The position numbers and the translations under genes are program-made. 64,000 bases of DNA from Rhodospirillaceae bacterium. Lineage in GTDB: Bacteria; Pseudomonadota; Alphaproteobacteria; Kiloniellales; DSM-21159. Location: NCBI GenBank assembly GCA_029265995.1, contig JAJUFM010000001.1, positions 1 through 64,000 on the forward strand, read 5' to 3'. This document shows positions 6,936 through 40,396 of this stretch, one piece after another. The notes under the pieces were generated by a model that was not told where the DNA came from, made no database searches, and saw only the letters and a list, made by a program, of their open reading frames with translations. The number at the start of each line of letters is the position of its first letter. The first letter of the stretch is position 1.

Positions 6936-9900
6936 CTACTCCGCGGGTTTCAGGCGGCGCTGCTCCTCTTCCTCCAGGGCTTGCAGGTCTTGCTCGATTG
7001 CGTTGCGGGAGCGGGTGAAGCGCGCGAGCAGATCGTAGAGGACGGGGACCACAAAGAAGGTCAAGAGGGTCGCAAACAGCAGCCCGCCGATGACCACCGC
7101 GCCGATGGACGCTCGGCTTTCCGCGCCCGCCCCGCGCGCCAGCACCAGAGGCAGCGCGCCGAAAACCGTCGAAATCGCCGTCATCAGGATCGGGCGAAAG
7201 CGCAGCACCGCCCCCTCGACGATCGCCTCGCGCACCGTCCTTCCCTCGTCGCGCAGTTGATTGGCGAACTCGACGATCAGGATACCGTTCTTGGTCAGCA
7301 GCCCGATCAGCAGGATCATCCCGATCTGGCTGTAGATGTTGAGGGAAATGCCGCTGATCAAAAGCGCTGCCAGGGCCCCAGTGATGGCAAGCGGCACCAC
7401 CAGCATGATGATCAGCGGGTGGATCCAGCTTTCAAACTGGGCGGATAACACCAGGAAGACGATCAGCAGCGCCAGCAGGAAGGTGACGTAAATCGCCCCT
7501 GACGTCTCCATGAAGTCCAGGGCCTGCCCCAGGTAGCCGAGCCGCGCTTCAGGCGGCAGCTCCTCGGCGGCCAGCTCCTGGAAGAAGGCCAATGCTTCAC
7601 CCAGAGAGTAGCCGTCGGCGAGCGATGCGCTGATGGTGATCGAGGGTAGGCGATCAATGCGGGTGAGCCGCGGAGAGGCGCCGCGCTCCTCGATCGAGAT
7701 CAGGCTCGAAAGCGGCACCAGCTCTTGATCGGAGGCCCGCAGGAAAATGTTTTCCAGATCCGTGGGGGTTGCGCGATCGGAGGGCTCGGCCTGCACGATG
7801 ACATCATACTCCCGGCCACGGTCCAGGTAGCGACCCACGACGCGGGAGGCGATCATGGTTTCGATCGCCCGGGCCACGTCCTGGGCCCTGACTCCCAGAT
7901 CCGCAGCCCGGCGGCGGTCGACACTGATGTCCAATTGCGGGCGGTTTTCATCGTAATCGGTGCTGATGTTCATCAGCCCCGAATTGCTCTGCGCCCGAGC
8001 CATCACCCGGTCGGTCCACTCTTTGATCTGGCTATAGTCGGGACCGCTGACGACGACCTGAACCGGCTGCCGGAAACTGGACTGGCCGAGACCGGGGGGA
8101 TTCACGGCGAAAGCCCGCACCCCCGGCGCATTCCCCAGCAGGGGGAAAATCTGCTGCGTCACTTCCTGTTGGCGGACATCCCTCTCCTCCCAGGGCTCGA
8201 GGCCGACGATGGTGAAAGCCCGATTGCCGATGCCGCCAAAGCCGACGATGGTGAAGATGCGGTTCGCGATCCCCTGCTCCCGGAAATGCTCCAGCTGCTC
8301 TTCGATCACCTGGACGCTGCGGTAGGTAGCCGCAGGGGTCGTGCCTTCGGGCGCCGTGCTTGGAATGATGATGACCGAGCGATCTTCGACGGGCGTCAAC
8401 TCCTGGGGCACCAGGGTGAAGAGTTGAACAGAGGCGAGCGCAGCAACCACGCCCAGCGCCAGTACGATCACCGGGAAGCGCAATGACACTTCGAGCACCC
8501 GCCGGTAGCCCCCCGCCATCGCGTTGAGGAGACGTTCCGACGCCCGGAAAAACCTGCTGCTCCCGGTCGTGGGGCGTAACCACTTGGAGCAGAGCATCGG
8601 CGCCAGAGTGAGGGCGACCAGGCTGGAAATGATCACGGCCGCGGCCATCACGAAGCCGAATTCCGTAAAGAGACGGCCGACGTTGCCTTCCATGAAGGCG
8701 ATCGGCACGAAAACAGCAACCAGGGTCAGGGTGGTCGCGATAACCGCGAAGGCTACCTGCCGAGCGCCGCGCACCGCGGCGATCAGGGGCGCCTCCCCCT
8801 CATCGATCCGTCGCTGCACGTTCTCCAGCACGACGATGGCATCATCGACGACCAGGCCCACCGCCAAAATCAGCGCCAGCAGGGTCAGGACGTTAATGGA
8901 AAAGCCTGCCGGCGCCATGATGATGAAGGCGCCGATGATGGAAACCGGGATCGTGAAGGCAGGAATCGCCGTCGCACGCACTGAGCGCAAGAAAAGGAAA
9001 ATCACCGCGATCACCAGCACGATCGCGATCCCGAGCGTGATGAGCACCTCCTCGACCGCGGCCCGCACGAACAGGGACTCGTCGTAACTGATACTGGCAG
9101 TCACTCCCGCGGGGAGGCTGCGGCGGATGTCCTCCAGCGCTTCGCGCACCAGATCGGAAACCTCGATCACATTGGCGTTCGACTGGCGGATGATGCCCAG
9201 TCCCACGCCCGGCTGGCCGTTGGAGCGGAGCAGCGTGCGCTCGCTTTCCACCCCTCGTTCCACACGCGCCACCTCACCCAGGCGCACCTGATACTCCGGC
9301 GTACGGGCGACCACGATCTCGGCAAACTCTTCCGGCGTAGAAAGGCGGGTCGCCGTTCGCACGGTCAGCTCGCGGGTGTCCGATTCAATCCGGCCCGCAG
9401 GAAGCTCGAGATTGTTTTCCCGCGCAGCCTGCTCCAGGTCCGCAATGGTGACGTTGCGCGCCGCCATTGCCTGCCGGTCCAGCCAGATCCGCATGGCATA
9501 GCGCCGCTCGCCGCCTATGTTGACGCTGGCGACACCGTCCAGCACGGAGAGGCGATCCACCAGGTAGCGGCGCGCATAGTCGGTGAGTTCGGCCGCATCC
9601 ATGCGGTCGCTGGTCATGGAGATCCACAGCATGGGACGCGCATCAGCGTCCGCCTTGCGCACGATCGGCGCGTCCGCCTGCTCGGGCAGACGGTTCGCGA
9701 TGCGGCCAATGGCATCGCGCACGTCGTTGGCTGCCCTGTCGACGTCCTGGTCCAGGTTGAAGTTGATGGTGATCCAGGCACGGCTGTCCCGGCTCTGGGA
9801 CTCGATGTAGCGAATCCCTTCAACCGTTGCGATGGCCGCCTCGACGACCTCGACCACCTCGCTCTCGATGACCTCCGGCGAGGCGCCGGTGTATTCCACG

Positions 9901-34878: not shown

Positions 34879-35700
34879 TCAGAACCTGATCCGCAACCCG
34901 GCACGTGCTGTGTGATCGTGCTGGCGGTTGGAGATGTAGGCATCATAAGCGCCGAAGGCTTCAACGCCGCCGCCGACCCCGATGTCTAGCCCCACTCCGA
35001 GAAGGGCCGCATCCTTGCTGCGCTTCGCACCGGAGACGGTAAAGCGCTCGCCCCCCGCAGCAAAGGCAAGATCCGCATCGCTGCTGGAGCCAGTCACCCG
35101 ATGCTCCCATCCCAGCGTGGCGAAGGGTTTCAGCCGAAGGTCGCTCTCGAGTTCGAAGGTCTCGCTAACTTGCACGCCCAGAGTCGTGTGCACGGTGGAG
35201 CTCCGATCCTTGGCGACCTCAAGATTGGCATCACCGGCCCCACTCTCCCGATAACTTTCGGTCCGGCTGTGCTGGAAGCTCATGCCGGCGAAAGGTTCGA
35301 GCGCCAGGCTCTCCAGTTGGAAACGGTGACCCACTTCAGCGAAAACCTGAGCAGACCAGCCGTCGTAGTCAGCCGTGGCTTGCCTGTTCCCCGAAGGCAG
35401 CCGCACCGTGCGCTCACTCTCGAGGTCGTGCCAGCCGAAGCTGGCGCCGCCGCGAAGTCGCCAGCCGCCACTGCGCCACAGGCCATAGGTGGAGAGGGAG
35501 TAGGTATCGGCCTCCACCCGACTCGCCCGGTCGTCGATCTTCGCCTTGTCGCTTTGATAGCCCAGGGCCATGCCCATACCGAAGGTTTCGGAGAAGAGCA
35601 TTTCCGCGCCGATCAGGCCGCCCCAGCTGTCCGTGCGGGTGTCCGCAGCATTGCCATCTCCCTCCAGGGTGCCGGTGCCGGCGTATAGCTCGATCCAGGC
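34879..35700 (-). other. Autotransporter beta-barrel domain
   Basis: Last ~272 aa alternate aromatic/hydrophobic residues in short strands (YGLWRSGGWRLRGGASFGWHDLE, FAEVGHRFQLESLALEPFAGMSFQHSRTESYRESG), terminal RAGLRIRF. Confidence 0.85.
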
Positions 35701-38700
35701 CGCAGGACCGTTTCCACCATCTGCCGCGGTGGGAGCCGCTACTGGATCGGCATCGGAGACCGCCAGCGCCGCAAGGCTATTTGCCTGAAGCTCACTGCCA
35801 CCGCTGCTGCCAGAGAAGCCGGACATGCGCTTGCTGATCTGGCTCCGCAGACGGCGGCCAATGTCCAGCGGCATGGCGTTTGCCGTCGCATGAACTTCAC
35901 CTGAAAGCGTATCGTAGGCTTCGCGGGCCTCCTCTTCCGTCATCCAGACAAGCTGCCTGTAAAGCGAGTCCTCCTGTCCGGGCCCGAGAGACTCAAGCGC
36001 CCTGGCCACAGCACGCTGGTTTCGCGAACGCGCGGCTTTATCGAAGGAGGTGTCGCTGCGGCCAACATGCAACGTCAGTTGCTTGCGATCCTCTTCGGGG
36101 GTAACCCGCAGGGCGAGGAAGGGAAGGTCGAGGTCGACACTGCCGAAAGTGCCATCGATCTCCTCCGACGAGGAGAAGATTGAATACTGCTGGTTCAGCG
36201 GATAGTCGTCGGGAGCACGCTCGACAGCGAGCACCGCCTCTTGCTCCACAACAGCCTTGCCTTCGACCCTGATGTGATCGGACTCACCCGCCGAGTTGAT
36301 ATCGACAAGGTAGAGGCTGCCGTCTTCAAGATGCAGATCGCCCTCGATGGTGGTGTGCTGGATCTCTTCAAACCCGGGCGCGAGAAGACCGCGGTTACGG
36401 ACTGTCCCCTCCCCCAGACGAACCAGCGAGCCGGGCGCAAAGATGCCGTTGGCCTCGTTCAGGATTGCGTTCTCGCCGCCACCCAAGTCCAAACCGCCCA
36501 CCAGCATGCCGTGATTGACGACCCTTTCGTTCTGGTCCCCGCCGCTGACCGTCAAGTCGCCGTGGGAGATCAAAAGCCCCTTGTTGAGCAGCTTATTGTC
36601 CTCGCCATCGAGGAACTCCACCGCCGGCCCTTCGAGGGCCAGAACGACGCCGTTTTCGCCGATCTCAATCTCGATATCGCCAGCCGGCTGAGCTTCCAGG
36701 TCCTCCCACCAGTCGCCGGAAACAGAAGAAGCGCTGATGCCGCTGCGGGCGAAGATGAGCCCGTCGTTCACAATATCGATCCGCGGGCCCGCAGCGGTCT
36801 CAGCTTCGACCGCCCCTGATAGATCAAGATAAAGGTTTGAGTGGGCGATGATGCCCCAGCCTTCTTCCGCAAACACGCGGCCATCATGACTATTGTAGAT
36901 ATGCACTGCAGCGACATCGGGGCCAATGTCGACCTGGGCAGCACGCTCGACGCCCTCCCCAAGCTGTTCGGCGTTGAGCAAGACCCTCACATTGGCGTCG
37001 GCTACAAGGCCGTCGGTTCCTGCTGTCACCTCACCGCTATTCACGATATCTACCGTCCCGGCCTTCGCACCCAGAGAGAGATCCACAAGCTGCGAGCCTG
37101 AAGCGGTGGACGCAACCGACTGAACGACGCCCACGTCAACGCTAAGAGCTGAACCGGCGTGGATGCCTGCCCAGCCGGAGGCAACATCTCCGCTATTGTG
37201 AACATCCACCGCAGCCGCAGCCTCGCCTACCGCCAGCTTTACCGTTTGCGAAGCGATAGCGGCCGATTCCACGGACTGCCGAATGTTCATCCCGACCATG
37301 ACCAAGGAGCCGGGATCTATTCCTACCTCCTGTGCTCGAATGCTCCCGCTATTGCGGATGCTCACCGAGCCTGTGCCGGTCCAGTCAGCGCCCTCTACCT
37401 GCTGGTCGATAACCGCCCTGGCCGAGGAGTCGGCGACATATTCCTGCAGCACGGAACTCCCCCCATCGAGGTAATTCCAAGCGCTAATACCGAACCAGTC
37501 AGCACGAATATCACCTTGGTTCGCGATTTCGATCGCGCCTAAGAAGCTATTATCCCCTTCAAGATGTTTCTGGCTGGCCTGATTCGTCTGACTGACGTGC
37601 GTCAGGGCATCACCGGGGGCGCGGTTGCGCTGCTTCAAGATCTGGGTGGTATCAGCCAGCTGATCGACGATGCTGTAGCCGTAAATCCCGTCCCAGCCCG
37701 ATCTGATCTCGCCACTATTCTCGACCATGATAGAACCGGCATGGCGAGCCGTGCTTCCGGTGACCAGCTGCTCCGCCTCGTTCGTTTGGGCTGCAGGCGG
37801 CCAACTACCCTCCCGCAAACTGGCATCCTGCCCGACTTGCCTGTGAATGCGATTATGCTGAGTCAGGTGCTGCTGTGCGCTATCCCGCGTTTCCACCACG
37901 TTGCCAACGGATACACCATCTTCCCCGGCTCGGATGCGGCCGCTGGTATTGACCTCGACCCGCCCCGCACCTGTCCAGTCGCCGCCGTGCGCGCGCTGAT
38001 CACCCTTGTTGATCTGTGTCAGGCTCCGTCCGCGTTCAGCACCAGCATCGGCAAGAACCGGCGCAACCTCTACCAAGGGTGCCGGCTGGTGGGCCTTGTT
38101 CCGCTGCTTGAGGTGTTGATCCACATGGGTGGAAAGCTTGACGTAGTTGTCTACGCCAATTCCGTATTCCTTTGCGCGGATCTCTCCGCTGTTGTCGATC
38201 AACCGTCCGCTCAGGTTGAAGCCGCTGCTGCCTCCGGCAATCTGCCGCGCGTCATTCTCCTGATCGGCCCTTTGCGGGAGGAGGCTGTCGCCATCGGCCG
38301 TCTGATCCAAAGCCAGCGTCCGCCCCTTTTGCCGCGCAATGTTGCGCTGATCGGCGGTCTGCGCCGTCTTTTCAATAAGAGTGAAAAAACTTTCCGCGAC
38401 AGCACCCGAACGACCCGCCGTGATCCAGCCACTGTTGTCGATTTCGATGCGACCGACGCCGCTCCAGTCGCTGCCATAAAAGCGCTGTTGGATCCCATTG
38501 GACTGCCGCAGAAGCTGTCCCCCCTCGGCAGCATCCTGGTCAGATGGCGAAGCGGGCGCCACCTGCGTAGCCCTGTTTCCTTGCCTCGCACCCTGATTCG
38601 AGCCCGTGGCAAGGTGGATATCGCTGCGGGCTTCGACCCCCTCTAGGCCAGCACGAAGCTCTCCCTCGTTATCGACCTCCAGACTGCCGAAAGGACGCCC

Positions 38701-40215
38701 GACCATGCCATCGGAGTACTGCCGAACGTCATTATCCTGCGTCAGGTCCTGTGGGATGAGGCCGATACTCTCGATCTCCATGTCTCTCCAGGGCTGTTGC
38801 CGCGCGACATTGCCTTGACGCACCGTCTGCCCGATCGCCTTGTCAACCGAAAGCGCGTTTACTGCGACTATCGCTCTGCCATCAGCAAGAATCCGTCCCC
38901 TATTGCTGACGTCGACTTGCCCGGCGCCCTCCCAGCCGCTGCTTATGCCGTTATGATGGACCTTGTTCGCTTGCCGAAGCGTGACGGAATTGGGGACTTC
39001 GCCTGAGGCGCTTGACTGCAGCGCGGCATTCCCCTGTGCCAGGTCGCTTGTTCCGTCAGCAGAGTACTCGGCCAGACTCCTGGCATCGACCCCGTTTCTG
39101 CCGGCATCGATCTCTCCCGAGTTCTCAACCTCCATGCGCCCGGCGTCTTGTCCGGGGTTGCTGACAATGAACTGGCTGGCGGTGTTGCTCTGTCGAAGCT
39201 CGCCTTCCCCTGGGGAATCGCTGCCGGTGCTATCCTGTTCTGCGGCATTGCCTTGGCGAAGCCTCTGATGCACTTGATCGACACGGACAACCGTGCTTCT
39301 GCCGTTTACCCCATCCTTGGCGGCACCAATGGTCCCGACATTGTCGACCTTCAACGCGCCGACGGCCTCCCTAGGTTCGAACCACACAAGCTGGGTGGCC
39401 TCATTCGTCTGTGAGGGCGCCTGCGCGGATCTCTGGGCTGAAGCGGTGTCTTGGTCTTGTAATGCATCGCTGCCTGGGCCGTATTGCTCTGTAGCGTTGC
39501 CCTGAGCCATAAGCTGAAAGCTCTGAGTCTTGAGCAGAGACTGGGCTTTGGCCGCAATGCCGTTCGCCCCGGCTTCGACGCTGCCATTGTTCTCCACTTC
39601 GACGGAGCCGGTTAGCGACCACTTCTCACCCAAGATTTCCTGCGTGGCCTTGTTCTGCTGGTCGATCACCAGATCCTGGTCGGAAGCTTCCTCTTCACCG
39701 TCTTTGCCCTGAACGGCGGCGTTCCCCTGAGCAAGCGCCTGAAGTGTGAAGGTGTGAGAGAGCGCCTTGCCGCTCCCGGCAATACCGGCAGCCTCCGTCA
39801 GAATCAGGCCGTTGTTGCGCAGTGTAAGGGTGCCGGCACGCTGCCAATCGCCACCCATGACACCTTGAGCAGCGTCATTTCTCTCACTATTGGCCTGGCG
39901 GATGAACTGGCCCCGCCAAGAGATCAGTCCTGCTTTGCTTCGCCCCACCAGGCCGCTGCCCGGCGCTGAAGCAAGCTCATCGTTTATGATCGTGAGGTAT
40001 TCGCCGTCCCAGCTAGGCCTTGTCGATTCCTGGATCGGCCCGGAGCCCGCCTGGATGTCAAGATCCCAGAGCAGCCACCCATCCTGTTCCTCGGCAGCAA
40101 CTTCGACTGCCGCTACTGCTGCGACGATCATTGCGGCCGACGCCAGCAGTTGATGGCGTCTTGCTCCGCCACACGCCGCGCACTTCGCGCGATAGACGTA
40201 TCCCCCCACAAACAC
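34879..40215 (-). CDS. Giant repeat-rich autotransporter (type Va-like) with curlin-like QxNxAxQ passenger repeats
   Basis: 1778 aa; N-terminal hydrophobic export segment (LLASAAMIVAAVAAVEVAAEEQ); long repeat passenger; C-terminal ~272-aa beta-barrel (AWIELYAGTGTLEGDGNA...HTARAGLRIRF) ending in F. GTG start; GTG 40209 is an alternative with better spacing to AAGGGGG. Confidence 0.88.
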   Translation of the reverse strand: MFVGGYVYRAKCAACGGARRHQLLASAAMIVAAVAAVEVAAEEQDGWLLWDLDIQAGSGPIQESTRPSWDGEYLTIINDELASAPGSGLVGRSKAGLISWRGQFIRQANSERNDAAQGVMGGDWQRAGTLTLRNNGLILTEAAGIAGSGKALSHTFTLQALAQGNAAVQGKDGEEEASDQDLVIDQQNKATQEILGEKWSLTGSVEVENNGSVEAGANGIAAKAQSLLKTQSFQLMAQGNATEQYGPGSDALQDQDTASAQRSAQAPSQTNEATQLVWFEPREAVGALKVDNVGTIGAAKDGVNGRSTVVRVDQVHQRLRQGNAAEQDSTGSDSPGEGELRQSNTASQFIVSNPGQDAGRMEVENSGEIDAGRNGVDARSLAEYSADGTSDLAQGNAALQSSASGEVPNSVTLRQANKVHHNGISSGWEGAGQVDVSNRGRILADGRAIVAVNALSVDKAIGQTVRQGNVARQQPWRDMEIESIGLIPQDLTQDNDVRQYSDGMVGRPFGSLEVDNEGELRAGLEGVEARSDIHLATGSNQGARQGNRATQVAPASPSDQDAAEGGQLLRQSNGIQQRFYGSDWSGVGRIEIDNSGWITAGRSGAVAESFFTLIEKTAQTADQRNIARQKGRTLALDQTADGDSLLPQRADQENDARQIAGGSSGFNLSGRLIDNSGEIRAKEYGIGVDNYVKLSTHVDQHLKQRNKAHQPAPLVEVAPVLADAGAERGRSLTQINKGDQRAHGGDWTGAGRVEVNTSGRIRAGEDGVSVGNVVETRDSAQQHLTQHNRIHRQVGQDASLREGSWPPAAQTNEAEQLVTGSTARHAGSIMVENSGEIRSGWDGIYGYSIVDQLADTTQILKQRNRAPGDALTHVSQTNQASQKHLEGDNSFLGAIEIANQGDIRADWFGISAWNYLDGGSSVLQEYVADSSARAVIDQQVEGADWTGTGSVSIRNSGSIRAQEVGIDPGSLVMVGMNIRQSVESAAIASQTVKLAVGEAAAAVDVHNSGDVASGWAGIHAGSALSVDVGVVQSVASTASGSQLVDLSLGAKAGTVDIVNSGEVTAGTDGLVADANVRVLLNAEQLGEGVERAAQVDIGPDVAAVHIYNSHDGRVFAEEGWGIIAHSNLYLDLSGAVEAETAAGPRIDIVNDGLIFARSGISASSVSGDWWEDLEAQPAGDIEIEIGENGVVLALEGPAVEFLDGEDNKLLNKGLLISHGDLTVSGGDQNERVVNHGMLVGGLDLGGGENAILNEANGIFAPGSLVRLGEGTVRNRGLLAPGFEEIQHTTIEGDLHLEDGSLYLVDINSAGESDHIRVEGKAVVEQEAVLAVERAPDDYPLNQQYSIFSSSEEIDGTFGSVDLDLPFLALRVTPEEDRKQLTLHVGRSDTSFDKAARSRNQRAVARALESLGPGQEDSLYRQLVWMTEEEAREAYDTLSGEVHATANAMPLDIGRRLRSQISKRMSGFSGSSGGSELQANSLAALAVSDADPVAAPTAADGGNGPAAWIELYAGTGTLEGDGNAADTRTDSWGGLIGAEMLFSETFGMGMALGYQSDKAKIDDRASRVEADTYSLSTYGLWRSGGWRLRGGASFGWHDLESERTVRLPSGNRQATADYDGWSAQVFAEVGHRFQLESLALEPFAGMSFQHSRTESYRESGAGDANLEVAKDRSSTVHTTLGVQVSETFELESDLRLKPFATLGWEHRVTGSSSDADLAFAAGGERFTVSGAKRSKDAALLGVGLDIGVGGGVEAFGAYDAYISNRQHDHTARAGLRIRF
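36730..39910 (-). repeat. Tandem passenger repeats (about 15-16 degenerate units; the first ~11 carry QxNxAxQ-type motifs)
   Basis: Units such as LAQGNAAVQ..IDQQNKATQ..GSVEVENNGSVEAGANGIAAKA; LRQGNAAEQ..LRQSNTASQ..GRMEVENSGEIDAGRNGVDARS; LKQRNKAHQ..LTQINKGDQ..GRVEVNTSGRIRAGEDGVSVGN. Confidence 0.88.
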
Positions 40216-40396
40216 CCCCTTAGGTAGTCTATTGCGCCCTTCTTATCGGACGCTTCTCAGCTACGTCAATCCTTGCCAAGCGCCGACCAAACCGGGGCTC
40301 CTGTAGAAGAAGTTGCATTTTAAATACTGATTATGCATCCTGATCCGGCATTCTGGTGAATCCGTTCCCCTTCACCCCTGAACAAGGAGGCATCTC

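Follow-up and report, generated by a model that had tools for sequence, protein, structure and literature searches.

A paired-glutamine repeat in an Aquibaculum autotransporter passenger: a candidate flat beta-solenoid with inward-facing amide side chains

The window, by which we mean the whole 64,000-nucleotide stretch of DNA analyzed, comes from a marine bacterium of the same genus, Aquibaculum (Rhodovibrionaceae), as A. arenosum CAU 1616, an isolate from sea sand (PMC11316597). It carries a minus-strand open reading frame (34879..40215) encoding an autotransporter of 1778 aa, with a GTG start as listed; a second GTG in the same frame, at 40209, may be preferable as the start. The N-terminus presents a hydrophobic stretch behind RR and was assigned by eye as a plausible signal-peptide region (RRHQLLASAAMIVAAVAAVEVAAEE; 40093..40215, minus strand), and a similar leader is encoded in the A. 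arenosum DNA. The protein closes with an autotransporter beta-barrel (PF03797, E=3.9e-64; aa 1506-1758, 34942..35700, minus strand) and ends on Phe, as expected from the original prediction of a type V autotransporter. The end of the passenger and the linker ahead of the barrel (aa 1181-1500, 35716..36675, minus strand) are autochaperone-like by position alone. In this half of the protein, family models were matched by TIGR01414 (aa 1285-1778) and by the EprS model (aa 1231-1777), and the sole solved-structure match for the whole protein was 9oqa, the barrel part of an autotransporter-domain protein. By its barrel, the protein is a classical type Va autotransporter. Its neighbors encode a GT20 trehalose-phosphate synthase type protein, a glucokinase, a hexameric tyrosine-coordinated heme protein (HTHP), a glycolipid-binding protein, and a cysteine dioxygenase type protein, and the adjoining genes point to no pathway for the autotransporter. 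The HTHP gene (PF11534, 40397-40711) has a leader and is divergent from the autotransporter gene.

The passenger is built from ten tandem units of 66-83 aa, each with two Q-x-N-x-A-x-Q-type motifs (aa 124-892, 37540..39846). All units lie on the minus strand: unit 1 (aa 124-202, 39610..39846), unit 2 (aa 203-285, 39361..39609), unit 3 (aa 286-358, 39142..39360), unit 4 (aa 359-431, 38923..39141), unit 5 (aa 432-509, 38689..38922), unit 6 (aa 510-587, 38455..38688), unit 7 (aa 588-668, 38212..38454), unit 8 (aa 669-750, 37966..38211), unit 9 (aa 751-826, 37738..37965), and unit 10 (aa 827-892, 37540..37737), the last with the shortest loop (7 aa). Where about 11 tandem units had been noted, ten full motif pairs (aa 163-882) were found together with one degenerate leading copy, QANSERNDAAQ (aa 107-117, 39865..39897, minus strand). 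Each unit opens with the core strand and runs on through a long out-strand, which has motif 1 at its end, and a variable loop to a return strand with motif 2. The core consensus noted beforehand was recovered in the slightly fuller form G-x-V-x-V-x-N-x-G-x-I-x-A-G-x-x-G-V-x-A-x-S. The stretch between paired motifs, described beforehand as acidic, is so only mildly; the loops of the window units span 7-24 aa with 1-7 D/E and 0-3 K/R. Downstream of unit 10, the solenoid appears to continue (aa 893-1081, 36973..37539, minus strand) in units of 52-56 aa that do not have the motif tips and that keep the Gln at frame positions 48 and 6 (defined below); aa 949-1059 of this stretch are made up of plain 52-aa units.

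The motif pairs are far in excess of chance. In aa 101-940, the exact Q-x-N-x-A-x-Q was observed 13 times (shuffles: mean 0.05, maximum 2), which bears out the claim of paired motifs, and the looser Q-x-N-x3-[QHR] was observed 19 times (mean 0.8, maximum 5). Successive motif distances from aa 163 were 23, 52, 31, 52, 21, 52, 21, 52, 26, 52, 26, 52, 29, 52, 30, 52, 24, 52, and 14; that is, all nine steps leading from a motif 2 to the following motif 1 measure 52 residues, unlike the intra-pair distance, which varies freely. The core V lies 21 aa from motif 2. Units 2-10 are just 21-36% identical to unit 1, and the constant 52-residue spacing is therefore not the product of recent duplication. 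A further Gln stands four residues ahead of motif 1 in nine of the ten window units, counting back from motif 1.

Numbering the repeat from the first Gln of motif 2 as position 0 places the core strand at V21-x-N23-x-G25-x-I27-x-A29, the turn at 30-33, and motif 1 at Q52-N54-A56-Q58, with the extra Gln at 48. Column entropy alternates without a break over positions 34-58, the even positions being the conserved ones. Hydrophobicity alternates over 34-46 in the parity of the Gln residues; this holds for the window and for A. arenosum separately, with none of 5000 shuffles as strong in either species. Past motif 2, over positions 6-12 of the window Q units, the return strand showed no hydrophobic alternation (3708 of 5000 shuffles), which weighs against the one-rung model proposed below. 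Positions 34-58 thus look like a single strand some 25 residues long, its inner face hydrophobic at the start and made of Gln, Asn, and Ala at the end. The two parities together would put the amides on the buried face. The conserved Q, N, and A of the motifs probably share a face with the hydrophobic residues and lie on strands rather than in disordered loops, in keeping with the earlier proposal of a ladder-forming motif.

The A. arenosum ortholog (L009) is 55% identical to the window protein over aa 1145-1778, the barrel half, and 26-27% identical in the repeats. Across its ten units, Gln was retained at position 48 in 8, at 52 in 9, at 58 in 8, at 0 in 9, and at 6 in all 10, such that these five Gln positions are near-invariant over 20 units from two species, while the intervening Asn and Ala are relaxed in A. 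arenosum. Since Gln is kept and Asn/Ala are not, the frame of Gln residues probably represents the ancestral rule, with Q-x-N-x-A-x-Q as its lineage-specific version. In the A. arenosum gene as sequenced, the reading frame changes between the signal peptide and the passenger, close to a stretch of six G (L041, about 7680-7700); the alternative explanations are a sequencing error, slippage (phase variation), and a broken gene. The first codons of the window gene also contain G5 and G6 runs (40200-40220).

Parity and conservation also bear on a reading of the protein as an ordinary beta-helical adhesin, whose Q-rich segments form surface loops or ligand-binding strips (e.g., for polysaccharide) and no ladder exists. 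Many autotransporter adhesins use loops on a beta-helix for binding, and the inter-motif loops of the present protein, variable and mildly acidic, would suit such a role. However, the Gln parity equals the hydrophobic parity in two species, and no residues of the unit are more conserved than the Gln, whereas the outward positions are variable; we regard this account as quite unlikely.

We propose instead that the passenger is a wide, flat beta-solenoid with one unit of about 75 residues per rung, tethered to the cell, and that its edge is a beta-arch across which the two motifs of a unit face one another; to this arrangement we give an even chance of being correct. The core strand V-x-V-x-N-x-G-x-I-x-A would turn into the out-strand of about 25 residues that ends in motif 1, the variable loop would form the arc, and a return strand beginning with motif 2 would close the rung. 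Motif 1 would oppose motif 2 in antiparallel fashion, Gln to Gln and Asn to Ala, and as rungs stack, their inward-pointing Gln and Asn would line up as ladders at the distal edge of the solenoid, itself decorated by the variable, mildly acidic loop. The fixed 52 residues would then be the length needed to come back, in register, from motif 2 to motif 1 by way of the core, leaving the arc free. The most extreme units appear consistent with this layout. Only three residues separate the motifs in A. arenosum unit 2 (QANDAEQ-DAL-QKNNADQ), and seven do so in window unit 10; downstream, at aa 955-1059, the window units are exactly 52 aa long, with Gln 48 and Gln 6 present and the rest of both motifs lost jointly. 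A strand-arc-strand arm whose tip is trimmed symmetrically would explain both the short joins and the 52-aa units, which separate rungs do not.

The latter comparison concerns the main competing layout, in which each unit consists of three standard beta-helix rungs of about 26 aa (the V-x-N-x-G-x-I strand, motif 1, and motif 2) stacked with Asn in register to give an Asn/Gln ladder. Several distances are compatible with it: (i) the mean unit length of about 77 is near 3 x 26, and 52 and about 78 are multiples of 26; (ii) the rung of another alphaproteobacterial autotransporter, from a relative, is 25-26 aa; and (iii) motif 2 lies 21 aa from the core V with N aligned on N. Against these, the two motifs lie 10 aa apart in A. 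arenosum unit 2 and 14 aa apart in window unit 10, both less than a rung length, and the three-residue join of the former leaves no room for a separate rung per motif. Moreover, strand parity is continuous for 25 residues up to the end of motif 1, and an offset of 26 residues sets conserved motif positions on variable ones. A three-rung unit is therefore unlikely in our estimation, although it is the alternative that we take most seriously.

Structure modeling was performed with AlphaFold on units 3-6, using a seven-row alignment of the other units and A. arenosum. The model reached a mean pLDDT of 54.6 and a pTM of 0.50, with two of five models above 50 and the motif regions at a pLDDT of about 45; a second passenger segment gave a pLDDT of 30.3. 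In all four units, two short core strands preceded a longer one, 24-27 residues in length, that runs through motif 1; after a loop, a return strand of 12-15 residues runs through motif 2. This predicted pattern agrees with the sequence-derived frame. Structure prediction had been named in the original prediction as a check that could place the motifs in disordered loops; strands ran through both motifs in the model, albeit at the low confidence given above. The repeat frame and strand parity fit a beta-helical or solenoid passenger, which is a candidate fold given the low confidence of the structure model. No significant match came from a Foldseek search with the model of units 3-6, where FapC ranked first among PDB entries (E=0.015, prob 0.06, TM 0.08), and a viral fold library likewise gave no significant match.

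The motifs had been described at the outset as curlin-like. The curlin repeat has been redefined as two N-x-psi-x-psi-x-Q motifs with X-G-X-X between them, forming a strand-arc-strand arch with inward Gln/Asn (PMC10192328). The layout part of that description is supported: as in CsgA and other curlins, there would be two short, facing strand motifs per repeat plus an arc, with conserved inner Gln/Asn and variable polar outward positions, and the pair appears to be near-centrosymmetric here as in curlin. The sequence kinship does not hold. PF07012 had no match in the genome of the window organism, nor for any single unit; the curlin kernel N-x-psi-x-psi-x-Q occurred once in the passenger against 0.8 expected; Q-x-G-x-x-N was absent from it; and hhalign comparison of the repeat with three alphaproteobacterial curlins (from three genomes of the order) gave a probability of about 0.1%. 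With the Pfam, kernel, and profile comparisons all failing, we rejected curlin kinship. The two differ also in the strand motif (Q-x-N-x-A-x-Q in the passenger), in the arc (four residues in curlin versus 3-24 between the motifs here), in the repeat (about 23 aa versus 62-85 aa, the latter including the autotransporter core strand), and in export (via CsgG versus the protein's own barrel). A true curlin-derived domain joined to an autotransporter would account for the two motifs per repeat, with Q/N/A inward and an arc between, as in curlin motifs a and b (PMC10192328), yet the same null results make it a highly improbable origin. No csg genes are among the neighbors of the autotransporter gene, and the CsgG-family gene of the genome sits on another contig. 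Both Aquibaculum genomes have such a gene (PF03783) beside LuxR-type regulators, as judged by eye (G000:C24:3246-3827, L068, and L069 2109-5023), and the A. arenosum locus also encodes a 319-aa protein that looks secreted and has TAVGNSFSL-type repeats; these loci look like a curli- or holdfast-anchor-like operon that has no PF07012 curlin.

Other systems offer partial likenesses. FapC (PMC12392863, PDB 9u4u) shares imperfect repeats, conserved Asn/Gln, and variable loops, and would share the one-layer repeat and the long rung, but it is a secreted fiber subunit of the fap system outside any autotransporter. Its consensus N-q-Q-N is missing, with no N-x-Q-N in the passenger; together with the non-significant Foldseek values, this led us to reject kinship with FapC. 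The resemblance to the curli motif a/b arches and to FapC would hence be one of principle only. Chlamydia Pmp passengers also alternate between two short motifs whose residues point inward on a beta-helix, and filaments of Pmp21 with amyloid characteristics have been reported (PMC11166332, PMC8326573). Neither Pmp motif, GGA(I,L,V) or F-x-x-N, was found in the passenger, and the likeness is that of an autotransporter passenger with paired short inward-facing motifs; by analogy, the Pmp proteins are the best functional precedent for it. Closer at hand are the alphaproteobacterial beta-helix autotransporters of the NSG/GGGGG type, which share the barrel, the linker, and the V-x-N-S-G-x-I-x-A ... 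G-I-x-A-x-S core, but those examined have no Q-x-N-x-A-x-Q. One of them, from a relative (L014, 1727-6730, genome G023), has a very regular alternating 25/26-aa N-S-G repeat, a clean standard rung. Another (L019, 1000-7731, contig C19) is the only other PF03797 autotransporter of the window genome, with 2243 aa of the G-I-x-A-Q-S-I-G-G-G-G-G type and no Q motifs.

The distribution of the repeat is narrow. A repeat profile built from both species matched only the two Aquibaculum genomes among 387 sampled genomes of the class Alphaproteobacteria (275 genera) and 399 of the phylum Pseudomonadota, and a profile from the window repeats had no match in ten other family members. Searches of genome contigs gave no match with the single protein and, with the pair alignment, matched A. 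arenosum alone; a plasmid search retrieved barrel homologs alone, with no repeat, and PHROGs gave no match. The motif pair, for which a search in other autotransporters had been suggested, was absent from the eight examined from the window genome and its relatives, none of which has QxNxAxQ. The paired-Q repeat is provisionally restricted to the genus, sampling being thin relative to all known species. In open-access papers, no description of this repeat was found.

Barrel-mediated export and folding of the passenger is the established pathway for this class of autotransporter. By that route, the barrel would insert in the outer membrane, and the passenger would be drawn out to fold as a flat solenoid. 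Nothing in the passenger is enzyme-like, so the rod most likely stays tethered, and, judging from its protein class, it would likely serve as a stiff stalk that adheres or self-associates in biofilm on particles. In its fullest form, which we advance as a tentative reading that is less probable than the solenoid itself, the protein would be an intramolecular cross-beta solenoid, tethered to the cell and carrying amyloid-like ladders of Gln and Asn; it would be exported as an autotransporter without csg or fap machinery, and would add to curli and Fap a third amide-ladder architecture of independent evolutionary origin. If so, the amide-ladder design of secreted amyloid fibers would fit within one tethered molecule served by the simplest secretion route, and the gene rather than fiber growth would set repeat number and stacking. 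The contrast between the two species, with Gln kept and Asn/Ala relaxed, separates the residues that the fold would require from lineage-specific filling.
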